Source: Alphaproteobacteria bacterium (GTDB taxonomy: Bacteria; Pseudomonadota; Alphaproteobacteria; Acetobacterales; Acetobacteraceae). Taken from it: a DNA stretch of 32,773 bases. The translations under genes and the position numbers were made by a program. The number at the start of each line of letters is the position of its first letter. Positions within the stretch are counted from its first letter, which is position 1. Where the stretch lies: the NCBI GenBank assembly GCA_026400815.1, contig JAPLOI010000023.1, positions 1 to 32,773 on the forward strand. Reading direction: 5' to 3'. The notes under the pieces are model-generated. The model worked only from the letters and a program-made list of their open reading frames with translations. It searched no databases and was not told the DNA's origin. This document shows positions 2,727 to 31,147 of the stretch, one piece after another.

Positions 2727-2875
2727 GTTCTTTTTTGAAAAAAAGAACCAAAAAACTTTCATTCGTTTGGTGCGGGAAGAACGCACCTTTCCGCATCAAA
2801 CGATCAAAAGTCTTTTTGCTTCTTTTTCTTCAGAAAAATTTGCTTCTTTTTCTTCAGAAAAAGAAGACTCTTACC
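2727..2875. repeat. Composite hairpin repeat, copy 1 (terminator-like)
   Basis: Module 1 is the A/T hairpin GTTCTTTTTT-GA-AAAAAAGAAC type stem at 2727-2748. A central imperfect hairpin follows, with arms 2763-2776 (TCGTTTGGTGCGGG) and 2791-2803 (CCGCATCAAACGA). Module 2 at 2807-2870 is of the AGTCTTTTTGCTTC type, and within it a 24-bp unit is duplicated in tandem (about 2816-2839 and 2840-2863). The element sits between the end of the gnd-rpiA-gntK operon and the start of the ureohydrolase operon, all on the minus strand. The gntK stop codon (2854-2856) lies inside module 2. The central stem differs in sequence from copies 2 and 4 but still pairs. Confidence 0.8.
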
Positions 2876-3357
2876 TTCTCTTCAAGCGCTTGAACGATCG
2901 TCTCCGCCTCCGCCCCGATATCGACCACGATAGGGTTCTCATCCGCCCCCGGCGGTTCCAGCGTGGCAAACTGGCTGTCCAGCAGCGCCGTCGGCATGAA
3001 GTGCCCCTTCCGCGCCGCCATGCGCGCGGCGATCAGCGCCTTCTCGCCAGCGAGATGCACAATGGGTACATCCGGGTGGCCACCGACCAGGATATCCCGA
3101 TAGGCCCGCTTGAGCGCGGAGCAGGTCACGATCCCGCTCGCCCCCTCGGCCCGCCAGCCGTCCATCACCCTGGCGATGGTGTGCAGCCAGGGCCAGCGAT
3201 CGTCATCGGTCAGCGGCGTGCCGGCGGACATCTTGGCGACGTTGGCCGGCGGGTGCAGCGCATCGCCTTCCTGGAAGCGCCAGCCCAGGCGTTCGGCAAG
3301 CATCCGGGCAATGGTGGTCTTGCCGCTGCCGGCCACGCCCATGACGACCAGTATCAC
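2854..3357 (-). CDS. gntK: Gluconokinase
   Basis: 167 aa, the usual size for gluconokinase, which phosphorylates D-gluconate with ATP to 6-phosphogluconate, the substrate of the Gnd encoded two genes upstream. The protein begins MILVVMGVAGSGKTT, with the Walker A loop at about residues 7-14. The family block EGDALHPPANVAKMSAGTPLTDDDRWPWL is present, followed by CSALKRAYRD and KGHFMP. The GTG start at 3357 gives a 4-bp GTGA overlap with the rpiA stop; an ATG five codons later would cut off the first beta strand. The last residues (KVRVFFF) and the TGA are encoded by a composite hairpin repeat, so the C-terminus has been reshaped by that element. It is the last gene of the gnd-rpiA-gntK operon. 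Confidence 0.93.
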   Translation of the reverse strand: MILVVMGVAGSGKTTIARMLAERLGWRFQEGDALHPPANVAKMSAGTPLTDDDRWPWLHTIARVMDGWRAEGASGIVTCSALKRAYRDILVGGHPDVPIVHLAGEKALIAARMAARKGHFMPTALLDSQFATLEPPGADENPIVVDIGAEAETIVQALEEKVRVFFF

Positions 3358-5605: not shown

Positions 5606-7549
5606 ATGACCGACCCCCGAATCCCGCTGGAAGATGCCCACAAGATCGATGCCGGGGAGCATATCGGCTCCAACCCCTCCACCGAGCCCTCGATCGGCGA
5701 GATCATCGCGCGCCGCTTCTCCCGCCGCGACGCGATGCGCGGGCTGTTCGCCGTCGGCGCGGCAACCGCGCTGAGCGGCGTGGCGGCAGGCGAGGCCGAG
5801 GCGGCCGGGCCGTCGAGCTTCACCTTCAAGGAGATCAGCCACACCTACGACGGCACCCATCACGTGCCGGAGGGCTACGAGGTGCAGGTGCTGGTGCGCT
5901 GGGGCGACCCGATCATGGCCGGCGCGCCGGCGTTCGACGTGAACAACCAGACCGCCGCCGCCCAGGCGATGCAGTTCGGCTACAACTGCGACTACACCGA
6001 CTACAAGCCGCTGCCGCAGGGCTCGAACAATTCCGAGCACGGGCTGCTGGTGGTGAACCAGGAATACACCAACACCAACCTGATGTTCGCCGGCATCGGC
6101 GAGGGCCGCGGCGCGGCGATGCGCTCCACCAAGGCGCAGGTCGAGATCGAGATGGCCGCGCACGGCGTGGCGGTGGTCGAGATCCGCAAGACCGCCGGCC
6201 AATGGGCGGTGGTGGCCGACAGCAAGCTCGGCCGGCGCCTGCACCTGGGCACGCCGATGACGGTGAGCGGGCCTGCCGCCGGGCACGACCTGCTGAAGAC
6301 CAGCGCGGACGCCACCGGCCGTGCCGTTCTCGGCACCATCAACAACTGCGCCGGCGGCAACACGCCCTGGGGCACGGTGCTGACCGCCGAGGAGAATTTC
6401 AACATGTATTTCAGCGGCGACACCACCAAGTCGCCGCATGCCGAAATGTACAAGCGCTACGGTATCGGGCCGGCCTCGGGCTATGGCTGGTCGAAGTTCA
6501 TCGACCGGTTCGACATGGACAAGGAGCCGAACGAGCCGCACCGCTTCGGCTGGATCGTCGAGTTCGACCCGTACGACCCCAGCTCGGTGCCGGTGAAGCG
6601 CACCGCGCTCGGCCGCTTCAAGCACGAGGGCTGCCACCACGCCGTGGCGCGCGACGGCCGCGTGGTGATCTACATGGGCGACGACGAGCGCTTCGACTAT
6701 GTCTACAAGTTCGTCACCGCGCTGGCCTGGAACCCAACCGACCGCGCCGCCAACCGCGACCTGCTGGACACCGGCACCCTGTACGTCGCCCGCTTCGCCG
6801 AGGACGGCAAGGTGGTGTGGATGCCGCTGGTGCATGGCGAGGGGCCGCTGACCGAAGCCAACGGCTTCAAGAACCAGGCCGACATCGCAATCTTCACCCG
6901 CAAGGCCGCCGACCTGCTGAAGGCGACGCCAATGGATCGGCCGGAGGACGTGGAGGCCAACCCGGTCAACGGCCGCGTCTATGTGATCCTGACCAACAAC
7001 ACCAACCGCACCGCCCAGCAGGTGGACCGCGCCAACCCGCGCGCGCGCAACGCGCACGGCCACATCATCGAGATCACCAACGCGGGCAGCGATCACGCGG
7101 CGCTGGAAGGCACCTGGGGCATCTTCCTGGCCGCCGGCAAGCCGGGCATGGACGCCGGCTCGATCTACCATCGGGCGACCTCGTCCGAGGGCTGGCTGTC
7201 GTGCCCGGACAACGTGGCGTTCGACAGCAAGGGGCGGATGTACATCGCCACCGACGGCGCGCCGACCGCCGCCGGCATTGCCGACGGCGTCTATACCGCC
7301 GACGTGTCGGGCACCGGCCGGGCGCTGACCAAGCTGTTCTTCCAGGCCCCCACCGGCGCCGAAGTGTGCGGCCCGCTGCTGACGCCGGACGACCAGACCA
7401 TGTTCCTGGCCATCCAGCACCCGGGCGAAGACCCCGGCTCGACCTTCGAGAAGCCGTCCACCCGCTGGCCGGACTTCAAGGACGCCATGCCGCCGCGCCC
7501 GTCGGTGATCGCTGTGGTGAAGAAGGGCGGCGGGGTGATCGGGAGCTAG
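5606..7549 (+). CDS. phoX: PhoX-family alkaline phosphatase (DUF839), Tat-exported
   Basis: 647 aa. PhoX enzymes are periplasmic Ca/Fe-dependent phosphatases that release phosphate from organic esters. The N-terminus has a long pre-region, then a twin-arginine signal, SRRDAMRGLFAVGAA (about residues 39-53), with a likely cleavage site after AGEAEA (about 67). The rest fits the DUF839 beta-propeller: NNCAGGNTPWGTVLTAEEN, KHEGCHHAVARDGRVVIYMGDDERFDYVYKF (seen in parts), DRPEDVEANP and CPDNVAFDSKGRMYIATDG. A strong GAGGAGG site lies about 10 bp before the ATG. The gene is monocistronic and faces thiC across a composite hairpin repeat that begins just after its TAG. I could not identify a convincing Pho box in 5389-5605. 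Subfamily function is inferred from the family. Confidence 0.88.
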   Translation: MTDPRIPLEDAHKIDAGEHIGSNPSTEPSIGEIIARRFSRRDAMRGLFAVGAATALSGVAAGEAEAAGPSSFTFKEISHTYDGTHHVPEGYEVQVLVRWGDPIMAGAPAFDVNNQTAAAQAMQFGYNCDYTDYKPLPQGSNNSEHGLLVVNQEYTNTNLMFAGIGEGRGAAMRSTKAQVEIEMAAHGVAVVEIRKTAGQWAVVADSKLGRRLHLGTPMTVSGPAAGHDLLKTSADATGRAVLGTINNCAGGNTPWGTVLTAEENFNMYFSGDTTKSPHAEMYKRYGIGPASGYGWSKFIDRFDMDKEPNEPHRFGWIVEFDPYDPSSVPVKRTALGRFKHEGCHHAVARDGRVVIYMGDDERFDYVYKFVTALAWNPTDRAANRDLLDTGTLYVARFAEDGKVVWMPLVHGEGPLTEANGFKNQADIAIFTRKAADLLKATPMDRPEDVEANPVNGRVYVILTNNTNRTAQQVDRANPRARNAHGHIIEITNAGSDHAALEGTWGIFLAAGKPGMDAGSIYHRATSSEGWLSCPDNVAFDSKGRMYIATDGAPTAAGIADGVYTADVSGTGRALTKLFFQAPTGAEVCGPLLTPDDQTMFLAIQHPGEDPGSTFEKPSTRWPDFKDAMPPRPSVIAVVKKGGGVIGS

Positions 7550-7556
7550 AAAGAGT

Positions 7557-7668
7557 CTTCTTTTTTCTGAAGAAAAAAGAAGCAAAAAAGACTTCATCCC
7601 CTTTGCGCCGTGGCTAGCCACGGCGCAAAGGGGAAAAGTTTTTTGGTTCTTTTTTTCAAAAAAGAACC
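7557..7668. repeat. Composite hairpin repeat, copy 2 (bidirectional terminator-like)
   Basis: This is the most symmetric copy. Module 2 is at 7557-7582 (CTTCTTTTTTCT / AGAAAAAAGAAG, perfect 12-bp stem). The centre is a perfect 36-bp palindrome at 7598-7633, built on TTTGCGCCGTGGCTAGCC. Module 1 is at 7645-7668 (GGTTCTTTTTT / AAAAAAGAACC, perfect 11-bp stem). T runs lie in and beside both outer stems, so each can end transcription, one per strand. The element fills the space between the convergent phoX (stop 7547-7549) and thiC (stop 7676-7678) genes almost exactly. Confidence 0.85.
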
Positions 7669-7675
7669 GCTTCGC

Positions 7676-9649
<1,974 letters not shown>

Positions 9650-9681
9650 GCGTCGAGGCTGCGCCCGTCGGGCCCTGCTTG

Positions 9682-22288: not shown

Positions 22289-22375
22289 AACGCCCCGCTC
22301 TCCGTTCGGAGAAGCGAGGCGTTAACGTGCGGACGAATAACAGTCTTTTTGCTTCTTTTTCTTCAGAAAAAGAAG
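22289..22375. repeat. Composite hairpin repeat, copy 3 (partial)
   Basis: A central-type hairpin at 22289-22323 (AACGCC...GGCGTT outer stem, CTCCG-TT-CGGAG tip, one bulge and one mismatch) is followed by module 2 at 22352-22375 (CTTCTTTTTCT / AGAAAAAGAAG, perfect 11-bp stem), preceded by AGTCTTTTTG as in the other copies. Module 1 is missing or reduced to TTTTGGTTCTC at 22383-22393. Short REP-like repeats flank it on both sides. Confidence 0.65.
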
Positions 22376-22419: not shown

Positions 22420-22454
22420 GGCCTGGATTGCTTCGCTTCGCTCGCAATGACGGG
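22420..22454 (-). repeat. REP-like short repeat
   Basis: The reverse strand reads CCCGTCATTGCGAGCGAAGC then GAAGCAATCCAGGCC, a form of the widespread intergenic repeat GTCATTGCGAGCGAAGCGAAGCAATC-type (split here; recognised from memory). Together with 22251-22277 and the composite hairpin it makes the 380-bp gap 22145-22524 a repeat island with no convincing gene. Confidence 0.7.
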
Positions 22455-22490
22455 GGCGTGATGGGGCGGTGGTTGGTATCAGGCTGATCG

Positions 22491-27944: not shown

Positions 27945-28863
27945 ATTCTGGCAGCGCGACGGGTGGTTGCCCCGCCTGCTCTCCCCGCTGGGTGCGCTCT
28001 ACGCCGCCGCCACGGCCCGGCGTGTCGCCCAGCCCGGCTGGCGCGCACCCGTTCCGGTGCTGTGCATCGGCAACCCCGGCGCCGGCGGCACCGGCAAGAC
28101 CACCGTGGCGCTCGATCTCGCCGCCCGCCTCCAGGCCCGAGGCCACCGCCCCGCCTTCCTCACCCGCGGCTACGGCGCCCGCCTGCCCGGCCCGCTCCAG
28201 GTGGACCCCGCCCGCCACACCGCCGCCGAGGTGGGCGACGAACCCCTGCTCCTGGCCGCCGTCGCCCCCACCTTCCTCGGGGCAGACCGCGCCGCCACAG
28301 CCCGCCTCGCCCTTGCCCAGGACACCACCATCCTGCTGATGGATGATGGGCTGCAGAACCCCACCCTGGAGAAAACCCTCTCCCTGATGCTGATCGACGG
28401 CGCCGCCGGCTTCGGCAACGGCCGCGTGATCCCCGCTGGCCCGCTGCGCGAGCCCGCCGCCGCCGCCGCCGCGCGCTGTGCCGCCGCCATCCTGATTGGG
28501 CCAGACACCACCCTCGCCCTCGCCAGGCTTCCGCCCGGCCTGCCCGTTCTGCGCGCCCGGCTGGTATCCGCCCCGCCGCCGCCCGGCCCCCTGCTCGCCT
28601 TCGCCGGGATCGGCCGGCCGGAGAAATTTCGCGAGACGCTGGAAGCCGCCGGCGGAAATGTCGTTCGCCTCATCCCGTTTCCGGATCACCATCCCTACAC
28701 CGAGGCCGACCTCATCCCCCTGCTGGCCACCGGCGCCACGCTCGTGACCACGCCGAAGGACATGGTTCGCATTCCGCCCGCCCTGCGCCCGCGCATCACC
28801 GCGGTCGGGGTGCGTCTCGCCTGGCTGGACTCGCCCCACCCCTTGCTGGATCGCCTCGCATGA
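27931..28863 (+). CDS. lpxK: Tetraacyldisaccharide 4'-kinase LpxK
   Basis: 310 aa; phosphorylates the 4' position of the lipid A disaccharide precursor, the step before Kdo transfer by WaaA. The P-loop is GNPGAGGTGKTT (47-58), with FLTRGYGAR, VGDEPLLLA and the catalytic pair in MDDGLQNP (138-139) following. Near the C-terminus FAGIGRPEKF and FPDHHPYTEADL are standard. The N-terminal amphipathic segment APEFWQRDGWLPRLLSPLGALY is the membrane contact. It overlaps waaA by 14 bp and the HAD gene by 4 bp (ATGA). Confidence 0.95.
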   Translation: MRAPEFWQRDGWLPRLLSPLGALYAAATARRVAQPGWRAPVPVLCIGNPGAGGTGKTTVALDLAARLQARGHRPAFLTRGYGARLPGPLQVDPARHTAAEVGDEPLLLAAVAPTFLGADRAATARLALAQDTTILLMDDGLQNPTLEKTLSLMLIDGAAGFGNGRVIPAGPLREPAAAAAARCAAAILIGPDTTLALARLPPGLPVLRARLVSAPPPPGPLLAFAGIGRPEKFRETLEAAGGNVVRLIPFPDHHPYTEADLIPLLATGATLVTTPKDMVRIPPALRPRITAVGVRLAWLDSPHPLLDRLA

Positions 28864-29513
28864 CCCGCCCTGCCCTTCTCCTCGACCTCGACGGCACGCT
28901 GATCGATTCCCGCCCTGGCATCGTGGCCAGTATCCGTGCCGCCCTGCAGGATCTCGGCCACGCGCCGGACCCCGCGGAAGACTTCACCTGGATGATCGGA
29001 CCGCCGATGGAGCAGGTGATCGGCGGGGTGCTGGCACGCTGGAACGACGACCGCACCCAGCTCGCGGTGGACCGGTACCGCGCCAACTACACCCGCTTCG
29101 GCCTGACCGGGAACGCGATGTACCCCGGCATCGAGGACGCGGTGCGCAGCCTGGCCGAAACCCACGACCTGTTCCTGTGCACCGCCAAGCGCACCCGCTT
29201 CGCCGTGCCGATCCTGGAGAACCTTGGCCTGGCGCCGCTCTTCCGCGGCATCCACGGCACGGAGGATGACGGCCGGTTCGACGACAAGGCCGTGCTGGCG
29301 CGCTGGATCATCGAAGCCAATTCCCTCACCCGCGCCGCCCTGGCCGGTGACCGACTGCATGATATCGAGGCCGCCCACGCCAACCACATCCCCGCCATCG
29401 GGGCCGGCTGGGGATATGGTGGGCGTGAGGAACTGGAACGGTGCGGGGCGACCGTGGTGCTGGATCATGCGTCGCAGTTGCCTGACGCAGTCAAGCGAGC
29501 GGTTCTTTTTTGA
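28860..29513 (+). CDS. HAD family hydrolase (phosphoglycolate phosphatase-like)
   Basis: 217 aa. Motif I is LDLDGTLIDS with nucleophile Asp9 and acid Asp11; motif II is FLCTAKR; motif III/IV is in DDKAVL and LAGDRLHDIEAAHAN. This is a Gph/PGP-like HAD subfamily I enzyme with a helical cap. The substrate is not certain. It starts on the lpxK stop (ATGA), so it belongs to the waaA-lpxK transcript. The stop codon TGA (29511-29513) and the last residues (AVLF) are supplied by a composite hairpin repeat, suggesting that the original 3' end was replaced or extended by the element. Confidence 0.88.
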   Translation: MTRPALLLDLDGTLIDSRPGIVASIRAALQDLGHAPDPAEDFTWMIGPPMEQVIGGVLARWNDDRTQLAVDRYRANYTRFGLTGNAMYPGIEDAVRSLAETHDLFLCTAKRTRFAVPILENLGLAPLFRGIHGTEDDGRFDDKAVLARWIIEANSLTRAALAGDRLHDIEAAHANHIPAIGAGWGYGGREELERCGATVVLDHASQLPDAVKRAVLF

Positions 29514-29612
29514 AAAAAAGAACCAAAAAACTTTTCTCACTTTGCGCCGGGGCTAGCCTCGGCGCAAATTTATGAAGTCTTTTTTGCTTCTTTTTTCTTC
29601 AGAAAAAAGAAG
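29501..29612. repeat. Composite hairpin repeat, copy 4 (bidirectional terminator-like)
   Basis: Module 1 is at 29501-29524 (GGTTCTTTTTT-GA-AAAAAAAGAACC type), central hairpin at 29541-29568 (TTTGCGCCGGGGCTAGCC / CGGCGCAAA, one G-T pair), module 2 at 29587-29612 (perfect 12-bp CTTCTTTTTTCT / AGAAAAAAGAAG). Order is inverted relative to copy 2 but the parts are the same. It fills the gap between the convergent HAD gene and xseA; the HAD stop is inside module 1 and the xseA stop is 8 bp beyond module 2. Confidence 0.85.
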
Positions 29613-29620
29613 ATGCTTCC

Positions 29621-31147
29621 TTACAGCAGCAGAGACCCCTGCCGGGTGCCGGCTTTCCCCCCATCCGCCGTCGCCCGCACTTCCCCATCCGCCAACCGCA
29701 GCCGCAGCCGGTCGCCGGGCTTGATCGCGCTGGCCGTGGTGATCGGGTGCCCTGCCGCATCGCTCACCAGCGCGAAGCCGCGTTCCAGCACCCTTGTGTA
29801 GGAGAGCGCTTCCAACCCCGCGGAGGCGCCGGCCAGCCGGGCCCGCGCCTCGCGCAGCCCGGCGCGGATCGGCGCGTCGGACAAGCGGGGCAGCACCCGC
29901 GCGGCAGCGGCGGCGCGGCCGGCGACGGCGTGGCGGATCGCGGCCCGGAGCTTCTCGCCGGACAAGAGCAGGGCGGAGCGGCGTTGCGCGAGCAGGCCGG
30001 GGAGGGCCTGGAGCAAGCGGCCACCGCGGTCCTGCAGGGTTTGGCGCGCGCGGGCCAGCAGGCCGGGCAGGTCGGGCATGCCGCGTTCCGCGCGCGCCAG
30101 GGCGGCGCGGCGGGCGGCCAGCAGGTTGGGGAGCGCGAGGAGCAGGCGCTGATGGCGGTCGTCCAGCCGTTGGCGGGCGGTACCCAGGAGGCTGGGCAGG
30201 TCCGGCAGGCCGCGTTCGGCGCGTTGCAGGCGCAGGCGGCGTTCCTGCATCACGCGGTTCAGCGCGCCGGAGAGCCGCGCGCCCTTCTGCTGCAGGTCGG
30301 CGGCGATTTCCACGCGACTGGGCACGGCGAGTTCGGCCGCCGCCGTGGGGGTGGGGGCGCGGCGGTCGGAGGCGAAGTCGATCAGCGTGGTGTCGGTTTC
30401 GTGGCCGACGGCGGAGATCAGCGGGATGGTGCTGGCGGCGGCGGCGCGCACCACGGCTTCGTCGTTGAAGGCCATCAGGTCTTCGAGGCTGCCACCGCCG
30501 CGGGCGACGATGATCACATCTGGCCGCGGGACGGGGCCGCCGGGCTTGAGGCGGGAGAAGCCTTCGATGGCTTCGGCGATGCGCTGGGCGGCGCCCTCCC
30601 CCTGGACCGGGACGGGCCAGAGGATGAGATGGCGCGGGAAGCGGCGGGCCAGGGTGGTCTTGATGTCCTGGATGACGGCGCCCTGGGCGGAGGTGATCAC
30701 GCCGATCACGGTGGGCAGCAGCGGCAGGGGGCGCTTGCGGGCGGGGTCGAACAGGCCTTCCTCGGCCAGGCGCAGGCGCAGCGCCTCGATGCGGGCCAGC
30801 AGGGCGCCGGCGCCGGCGTATTCCATGCGGTCGACGATGAGCTGGTAGGAGGAGCGTTCGCCATAGGAGCTGATCTTGCCTTGGGCGATCACCTCCACCC
30901 CGTTCTCCGGCACCAGGCCGAGGCGCGGGACGGAGAATTTCCAGACCACGCCGGCGATCTTGCCGCCCTCATCCTTCAGCGAGAAGTAGATGTGCCCGCT
31001 GGGATAGCGCTTCAGCTCCGTGATCTCGCCGCGCACGCGGATGCGGCCGAAGGCGCCCTCCAGCGTGCGCTTCACCGCGCCGGAGATCTCCGAGACGCTG
31101 TACTCGGGAACGTTTGAGGTGGTGGGGGGAGCGGCCTGTTCGTCCAT
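29621..31147 (-). CDS. xseA: Exodeoxyribonuclease VII large subunit XseA
   Basis: 508 aa, catalytic subunit of exonuclease VII, which degrades single-stranded DNA. The N-terminal OB-fold (about 12-115) contains VRGEITELKRYPSGHIYFSLKD (in parts). The catalytic domain has LPLLPTVIGVITSAQGAVIQDI, DVIIVARGGGSLEDLMAFNDE and ISAVGHETDTTLIDFASDRRAPTPTAAAE (seen as separate blocks). The long helical region carries two tandem 43-residue repeats (309-350 and 352-393, each starting RAERG(L/M)PDLP), and the C-terminus has the YTRVLERGFALV motif. The family is usually about 400-460 aa, so the extra length lies in the repeats and helices. The ATG at 31147 faces purD divergently with a 48-bp gap. xseB is not in the window. 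Confidence 0.95.
   Translation of the reverse strand: MDEQAAPPTTSNVPEYSVSEISGAVKRTLEGAFGRIRVRGEITELKRYPSGHIYFSLKDEGGKIAGVVWKFSVPRLGLVPENGVEVIAQGKISSYGERSSYQLIVDRMEYAGAGALLARIEALRLRLAEEGLFDPARKRPLPLLPTVIGVITSAQGAVIQDIKTTLARRFPRHLILWPVPVQGEGAAQRIAEAIEGFSRLKPGGPVPRPDVIIVARGGGSLEDLMAFNDEAVVRAAAASTIPLISAVGHETDTTLIDFASDRRAPTPTAAAELAVPSRVEIAADLQQKGARLSGALNRVMQERRLRLQRAERGLPDLPSLLGTARQRLDDRHQRLLLALPNLLAARRAALARAERGMPDLPGLLARARQTLQDRGGRLLQALPGLLAQRRSALLLSGEKLRAAIRHAVAGRAAAAARVLPRLSDAPIRAGLREARARLAGASAGLEALSYTRVLERGFALVSDAAGHPITTASAIKPGDRLRLRLADGEVRATADGGKAGTRQGSLLL

Follow-up and report, generated by a model that had tools for sequence, protein, structure and literature searches.

The closest precedents for the repeat described here, judged from the accessible parts of the sources, are the pneumococcal SPRITE and the uptake-sequence terminators of Neisseria. 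As described, SPRITE provides a real precedent for terminator-like repeats that are mobile, and the present repeat resembles it in being short, interspersed and terminator-like, in lying near 3′ ends and between convergent genes, and in being probably mobile with no mover identified. SPRITE itself is AT-rich, has an 18-bp duplex with a long U-rich tract, and is present in 30 copies in the strain studied. Compared with this description, the present repeat is apparently two-way, is made of three hairpins, combines conserved ends with a variable core, and has a tail that supplies a stop codon; moreover, against the 30 copies of SPRITE stand hundreds to more than 1,000 module matches per genome. 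In the uptake-sequence terminators of Neisseria and Pasteurellaceae (Kingsford 2007, PMC1852404), inverted word pairs likewise form terminators at many gene ends. In the portion of that paper available, the repeated word is the stem, whereas here the T-tract and its flanking hairpin are repeated and the stem is variable.

Other repeat families share single traits with it, again as far as the accessible text of each source goes. REP, BIME and REPIN elements with their RAYT (PMC3733652, PMC2817692) are hairpin units in inverted pairs, extragenic and patchy among relatives. REP hairpins carry a GTAG or CGTC tag (PMC3733652), which is absent from the conserved module columns here; the conserved flanks are AAGT(C)TTTTT and (NCTT)n. 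MITEs (review PMC10969869) also are smaller than 200 bp, with inverted ends, high copy number and presence/absence polymorphism. Unlike them, the present repeat has no target-site duplication that we recognised, and its core varies and gets exchanged. Intrastrand triplex repeats (Holder 2015, PMC4666352) resemble it in having a conserved intergenic tract, triplex potential and loci that are unstable between strains, but their TM pattern is GC-rich, whereas here the tract is of A/T pyrimidine type, lies at gene ends and would form a putative triplex. Five module words had no occurrence in the literature searched. RepRanger (PMC12306157) counts generic "REPs" in Lichenicola cladoniae, a member of the Acetobacteraceae, and the accessible part of its text contains neither GTTC nor TTCTT; the accessible part of PMC2267715 makes no mention of Gluconobacter or Acetobacter.

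Anatomy of the copies in the window

The window is the whole stretch of 32,773 nucleotides that was analysed, from an Acetobacteraceae contig (JAPLOI010000023.1). Each outer module of the repeat consists of a AAAGTTTTTT tract, an A/T hairpin and a degenerate (NCTT)n tail, and forms a unit of about 45 nt. Two conserved outer modules in inverted orientation flank a fast-evolving and often self-complementary core, so that a transcript from either side meets an A/T hairpin, the core, and then a T-tract. Comparison of the repeats within the window bore out the sequence-only reading that the outer modules are diverged, inverted copies of each other. That reading had also assigned one modular plan to four places; the plan holds for 2727–2875 (copy 1), 7557–7668 (copy 2) and 29501–29612 (copy 4), but not for 22289–22375 (copy 3), which has a GC hairpin and a B module without a GGTTCTTTTTT module and is thus a half-element.

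Copy 2: The TAG stop codon of the PhoX gene (5606–7549) lies at 7547–7549 on the plus strand, immediately 5′ of the element, as seen in the sequence, in the gene calls and by comparison of the same codon across relatives. The element starts on the plus strand with the B-type outer hairpin at 7557–7582 (CTTCTTTTTTC, loop, GAAAAAAGAAG; sequence, RNA fold and terminator scan). The A-tract CAAAAAAGACTT at 7583–7597 (plus strand; sequence and fold) is the complement of the T-tract for minus-strand transcripts. The core at 7598–7633 is a GC stem, in which the perfect 36-bp palindrome noted earlier was located (sequence, fold and terminator scan). Behind it, AAAAGTTTTTT at 7634–7644 is the plus-strand T-tract (sequence and terminator scan), followed by the A-type outer hairpin GGTTCTTTTTT...AAAAAAGAACC at 7645–7668 (plus strand; sequence and fold). 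The convergent thiC gene (7676–9490) ends with a TAA stop at 7676–7678 on the minus strand (sequence and gene calls).

Copies 4, 1 and 3: In copy 4, the A-type hairpin at 29501–29524 (plus strand) contains in its loop the TGA stop (29511–29513) of a HAD-family gene (28860–29513), according to the sequence and gene calls. The A-tract, a core with a GCGCCGGGGCTAGCCTCGGCGC stem, and the T-tract occupy 29525–29586 (sequence and fold), and the B-type hairpin lies at 29587–29612 (plus strand), facing the TAA stop of an xseA-like gene at 29621–29623 on the minus strand (sequence, fold and gene calls). Copy 1 has its A-type hairpin at 2727–2748 (plus strand; sequence and comparison within the repeat family), and the A-tract, core (TCGTTTGGTGCGG...CCGCATCAAACGA) and B-type T-tract at 2749–2818, where the entire arm is one long hairpin (sequence and fold). 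Its B hairpin at 2819–2866 (plus strand; sequence and repeat comparison) is a tandem duplicate with a 24-bp step and a shortened first unit, and the loop of the second unit contains a minus-strand TGA stop (2854–2856) of a gene called at 2854–3357 by our own gene caller. Copy 3 comprises a GC hairpin of a different core type at 22289–22323 and a T-tract with a B-type hairpin at 22343–22375, both on the plus strand (sequence and fold); it is without an A module, and the next facing stop is about 150 bp away.

RNA folding of the window elements gave z values from −4.7 to −9.6. Copies 2 and 4 fold into three hairpins on both strands (z −5.0 to −9.6), with a GC-rich stem followed by a T-tract in either direction, which is not so in every copy; copy 1 folds into a single long arm on either strand. 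In a generic terminator scan, whose totals barely exceed those of shuffled sequence (13 versus 7.6 and 9 versus 6.1), the plus strand of copy 2 was the only window core listed, and none of the other terminator-like sites, 22 in all with this one, was listed with a stem as long. The scan, whose rule allows a T-rich tail at most 2 bases from the stem, missed the minus strand of this copy as well as copies 1 and 4; the T-run of copy 2 begins 5 nt past the GC stem. A comparison of the window with Rfam gave no match for the repeat at the gathering score. It returned a TPP riboswitch only (RF00059, 79.6 bits), at 9547–9654 on the minus strand upstream of the thiC gene.

Copy number and position at gene ends

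The assembly from which the window comes (GCA_026400815.1) has 5,111,241 bases in 89 contigs. Module A was found at 278 places and module B at 252 with at most 2 mismatches, and the reversed-pattern controls gave 0 and 0; the A count varies with the pattern, being 248 with a longer one. The repeat is far from chance and is genome-wide, and the further genomic copies that had been expected from the window are present in hundreds. A BLAST search of the same genome with the 112-bp copy gave at least 71 places on both strands among the 40 of 368 candidates that were scored. A sample of 60 stretches and the window covers 1,222,858 bases, or 23.9% of the genome, at 69% G+C. The stretches are a non-random choice, mainly long contigs present in the hit lists, and are slightly module-rich (82 of the 278 A modules, 29%). 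Our own codon-pair model called 1,093 genes in it, with 90% coding.

The revised list for the sample holds 96 elements. Of these, 72 are full composites, with the core between a module and an inverted module, and 24 are half-elements, a few of which (e.g., C15:32907 and C31:137599) resemble degenerate full copies. The earlier strict pattern gave 56 inverted pairs (54 A/B, one AA and one BB), with terminal inverted repeats and an element length below 200 bp, and 40 "single" modules, many of which are composites whose partner is a variant. Extrapolated to the whole genome, the full composites number at most about 300. Elements occupy 11,812 of 109,376 bases, about 11% of the sampled non-coding DNA. 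The opposite array, with tails abutting and cores outside, was seen in none of these 96 elements; it was seen in two other genomes, in 6 of 29 elements of G178 and 2 of 4 of G055 (stretches L114–L119 and L126).

Elements lie mostly downstream of genes. Among gaps of at least 80 bp in the sample, an element is present in 31 of 73 between convergent genes, in 50 of 236 between tandem genes and in 4 of 122 between divergent genes. Enrichment between convergent genes, which the sequence-only reading had set as a test, is thus evident against divergent gaps (Fisher p = 7e-12). Gaps shorter than 80 bp are rarely occupied (convergent 1/75, tandem 5/546, divergent 1/24). By the first criterion the 96 clusters divide into 32 convergent, 55 tandem, 5 divergent, 3 overlapping a called gene and 1 at an edge; by the revised list the 72 full composites divide into 26 convergent, 40 tandem, 5 divergent and 1 at an edge, with none inside genes. 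Full composites have 92 edges that face a stop codon; 76 of these lie no more than 10 bp from it, and 86 no more than 30 bp. A check free of the gene model, using facing ORFs of at least 100 aa, found modules adjoining an ORF stop in 115 of 143 cases in the sample against 10.0% of random positions. The same check in other genomes gave 11 of 19 in G080 (random 8.2%), 26 of 48 in G178 (7.6%) and 7 of 18 in four others together (9.2%).

The stop codons themselves are unusual. TAA is used at 63 of 103 element-adjacent stops (61%) versus 43 of 288 stops that have no element and are followed by a gap of 80 bp or more (15%; p = 3e-18), and at 57 of 687 stops with smaller downstream gaps. This excess arises because the element tail supplies the stop: the (NCTT)n tail reads AAGNAAG from the gene side, and a T before AAG gives TAA. 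In a few cases, including copies 1 and 4 of the window, a TGA in the hairpin loop is used instead. Of the 1,078 stops classed, 103 adjoin an element, or roughly one sampled gene end in ten. In tandem pairs, the module at the stop is A in 26 cases, B in 24 and neither in 5, as expected of a symmetric device. Half-elements in tandem pairs retained the stop-adjacent module in 14 of 16 cases (binomial p = 0.004); one or more of these 14 may be full copies that have degenerated. Such retention leaves that gene without a T-tract, and so counts against a terminator reading and calls for care; the half-elements may retain this module for its stop codon.

Conservation, exchange and distribution

Most module positions are at least 87% conserved among 82 A and 70 B modules of the sample, which were selected by pattern. 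The T-run positions are 98–100% T in the A modules and 100% T in the B modules, with the T-run itself included in the search patterns. The cores behave differently. Of the 55 composites then listed, 53 had cores that could be scored, the two others being too short (6 and 17 nt). Scored cores fold with z below −2 in 27 of 53 cases (median z −2.06), against 1 of 53 random segments, and 26 of 53 have z of −2 or above. Pairing within cores, taken position by position, shows a small excess (64.9% versus at most 59.3% in shuffles), which is small because core lengths vary.

Core words are nearly confined to elements, so that cores belong to the repeat family and fall into types. In the sample, TTGCGCCG.GGCTAGCC lies inside elements in 8 of 8 occurrences, TTTGATGCGG in 10 of 11, GCACGCGTGC in 10 of 12, and the shorter word TTCGTTTG in 24 of 31. 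A core that is a native terminator, with modules having jumped alongside, was ruled out for the main core types, which are common to unrelated sites and almost element-only. For the copy 3 word GAAGCGAGGCGTT, 2 of 3 exact matches lie outside elements, and a native-terminator origin may hold for half-elements such as this one. Two oddities of length were observed: a composite at L022:15582 with a core of about 6–8 nt, kept in G000, G171, G244 and G297, and a module tail at L109 (~11927) that has grown to about seven CTTN units and resembles a tetranucleotide microsatellite.

Compensatory changes, which the sequence-only reading proposed to look for, were sought in the outer hairpins of host genomes and viral contigs. 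From 74 distinct hairpins pre-filtered for at least 8 of 10 pairs, 52 were aligned and 22 dropped as out of register or near-duplicate. Pairing is found in 95.7% of cells, a share inflated by this pre-filtering and selection. Changes on both sides occur in 31 cells versus 11.1 in shuffles and 1–4 in slid controls; 22 of the 31 are the outermost pair (G-C 27, C-G 20, U-A 2, G-U 1). Pair and type counts are weaker: 4 pairs, reached in 53 of 500 shuffles, and 14 types, reached in 24 of 500. The suggestion that structure is conserved as sequence changes is upheld in part: 27 cores fold beyond shuffles and 26 do not, and the outer hairpins have changes on both sides.

Orthologous sites show how the parts evolve. 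Comparing 15 sites with as many as seven relatives gave 56 site-by-relative pairs, 32 of which could be parsed as full; the module split failed on our own copy at 2 of 15 sites and missed some full relatives, and the 24 non-full pairs include these. Mean identities of flanks, modules and core were 95%, 98/99% and 86% in G297 (n=9), 95%, 98/100% and 77% in G244 (n=6), 93%, 96/100% and 78% in G171 (n=7), 89%, 98/97% and 70% in G212 (n=6), 78%, 98/88% and 64% in G119 (n=3), and 81%, 89/100% and 35% in G274 (n=1). Modules are nearly constant between relatives and cores diverge or are replaced, with module identity biased upward since detection requires module likeness. At L064:12840, the core in G297 is of a different type between flanks that are 95–97% identical, and at the copy 2 site our own core type differs from that of G171, G244 and G297.

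The copy 2 site is empty in G119, with a 39-bp gap and both flanks aligned. The PhoX stop codon there is TAA in G171 and G244 and TAG in G297; it is TGA in the element-free G119 and G212. Other empty sites are L027:3876 in G033, G119 and G274 (4–7 bp, with an overlapping stop-start in G119 and G274) and L027:16331 in G171 (41 bp). Module-free but longer gaps occur at L027:13227 in G244 (106 bp) and at L064:12840 in G119 (245 bp), and at the copy 4 site G171 and G033 have no element and a different short C-terminus, as judged from the left flank only. Deletion scars, with two hairpins fused or one left, were found at L027:15052 in G244 and at L064:518 in G244 and G033. No target-site duplication was recognised by eye at empty and filled sites, and the empty sites differ by replacement of the gap.

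The A pattern is present in 114 of 299 family genomes and 45 of 102 genera, many of the positives having one or two matches, a level that the reversed control also reaches in some genomes. Among the 299, module matches range from 0 to 1,364 (G080), with 1,287 in G178 and large differences within genera. Of 385 genomes from the class, 2 contain a stricter 33-base pattern; both belong to the family, and the 380 genomes outside it have none. Named matches (25 stretches) are metagenome assemblies labelled Asaia bogorensis, Acetobacteraceae, Rhodospirillales or Alphaproteobacteria, and two Pseudoroseomonas cervicalis plasmids match at 78–79%; these names point to Acetobacteraceae as the family. In IMG/VR, the exact 33-base pattern was found in 19 stretches from 13 predicted viral contigs, several with full composites and some with single modules only. 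In these, 31 of 51 distinct modules adjoin a facing ORF stop versus 7.2% of random positions. Seven of nine proteins from two viral loci matched PHROGs, mostly tail, fibre or baseplate families. Composites lie about 2–8 kb apart in L152, L156, L159 and L161–L163, with the tail and baseplate matches in L161 and L162. We infer Acetobacteraceae as the hosts, and some of the predicted viral contigs may contain host DNA. A small phage record, L070 (MG945182.1, Microviridae sp., 5908–5944), carries a lone A module behind a long GC hairpin; this stretch has 37% G+C, is labelled as from cattle blood, and suggests either that the module is used in one direction here or that the assembly is mixed.

A possible mover was sought among Y1_Tnp genes. 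Of the 30 genomes with 100 or more module matches, 7 gave a match (E ≤ 0.001), compared with 29 of the 269 others (p = 0.07); in total 36 of the 299 have a match, 33 of them over the cut-off. The three module-richest genomes (G080, G178 and G128) gave no match. The genome of the window has one Y1_Tnp gene (on L069, 3,336 bases), beside which there was no module A match at 3 mismatches. From this distribution, and with no module A beside our own Y1_Tnp, RAYT was rejected as a requirement for the repeat; a past role is possible.

Terminator reading and its alternatives

With a probability of roughly 0.6, the repeat, an interspersed family of the Acetobacteraceae, acts as an intrinsic terminator of transcription in both directions. 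Its anatomy is that of a two-way intrinsic terminator, with which position and conservation agree; the termination is putative and read from sequence. On either strand, RNA polymerase would stop once past the core stem, in the T-tract, and convergent or neighbouring genes would thereby be insulated. The repeat appears to have spread through the genome, as presence and absence among relatives and the copy number suggest. From empty and filled orthologous sites, whole composites would have been inserted at the gap beside stop codons, or have replaced it. The tail would then often become a new stop codon (T+AAG to TAA, or the loop TGA), the cores would later change by substitution and by swapping with other cores, and deletions would leave half-elements and scars. 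The term "mobile" in the sequence-only reading is supported by presence and absence at orthologous sites, although no transposase, target duplication or movement was found.

A bias towards gene ends is also expected of a tolerated parasite. A MITE- or REP-like element with no terminator role, which lies after stop codons since insertion harms least there, is a less likely alternative. The SPRITE paper, in its accessible part, proposes such least-harm siting for the convergent-gene enrichment of pneumococcal repeats, and the patchy copy number in the family (0 to 1,364 in 299 genomes, uneven within genera), the empty sites and decay among relatives, and the mere 27 of 53 cores that fold clearly beyond shuffles agree with it. 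However, the 76 of 92 edges within 10 bp of a stop are closer than tolerance alone predicts, full copies retain a T-tract in both directions, and T-tracts and hairpins vary little between species as cores drift, even if detection biases this upward. Furthermore, 23 of the 30 genomes with at least 100 module matches are without a match to Y1_Tnp, the sole mover type sought. The retention of the stop-adjacent module in 14 of 16 half-elements in tandem pairs, together with the covariation of the outer hairpins, would fit an mRNA 3′-end stabiliser or processing site, in which the stop-adjacent A/T hairpin protects the message against 3′ exonucleases or serves as a target of an RNase or of Hfq and termination occurs further downstream. 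We consider this improbable, given that the retained module may simply supply the stop codon and that A/T hairpins are weak exonuclease blocks. REPs have been hypothesised to stabilise mRNA (PMC3733652, accessible part), which is a further point in its favour.

A signal at the DNA level, such as a cruciform, an intrastrand triplex or a protein-binding site, is highly improbable. The T-tract resembles a mirror image of the pyrimidine arm in each outer hairpin, and the run lengths match, which is what a T.A-T triplex requires. In addition, of 169 modules with a C in the T-tract (among 447 parsed), 155 have it at the same distance from the link as the first C in the pyrimidine arm. However, such a match is equally what one would expect if the tract formed alternative Watson-Crick pairs with the 3′ arm, or if sequence were copied from one near-direct repeat to the other. 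Most of the count comes from one inherited subtype, the 155 modules having four distances with 118 in that subtype; the A/T motif is also unlike the GC-rich pattern of Holder et al. (PMC4666352, accessible part). Least probable by far is a DNA uptake sequence co-opted into terminators, for which Neisseria, where inverted pairs serve in this way, is the model (Kingsford 2007, PMC1852404). Known uptake signals are about 9–11 nt long and generally occur at least 1,000 times, according to the accessible text, against a unit of about 45 nt here, and none of the 72 full composites lies inside a gene.

If the bidirectional terminator reading holds, a single repeat family would punctuate about one in ten of the gene ends sampled here, and transcription punctuation could spread as a repeat, perhaps via phages too, beyond gene-by-gene evolution. 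A broader and more doubtful version, to which we give some tentative credence, is a selfish, mobile terminator common to Acetobacteraceae and their phages, which would spread as a good two-way terminator, insert at and donate stop codons, keep its ends fixed (possibly as triplex-forming ends), and swap its central stem as a cassette. Close relatives carry one and the same site filled, empty, with a swapped core or with a scar, a natural experiment on the effect of inserted terminators on neighbouring genes, and the elements, if terminating, are a potential engineering set of two-way terminators with swappable cores.

Other intergenic repeats are present in the same genome. A second one, of GGATTGCTTCGCTTCGCTCGCAATGACG type, occurs at 22420–22460 of the window and elsewhere, and its word GGATTGCTTCGCT is found without mismatch at 6 places of the 1.22-Mb sample, each of them intergenic. 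A third is the palindrome GGCGGAACCGCTTCGCGTTCCGCC, with 4 exact intergenic copies in the sample (e.g., in C18 and C42), which sometimes adjoins a half-element.
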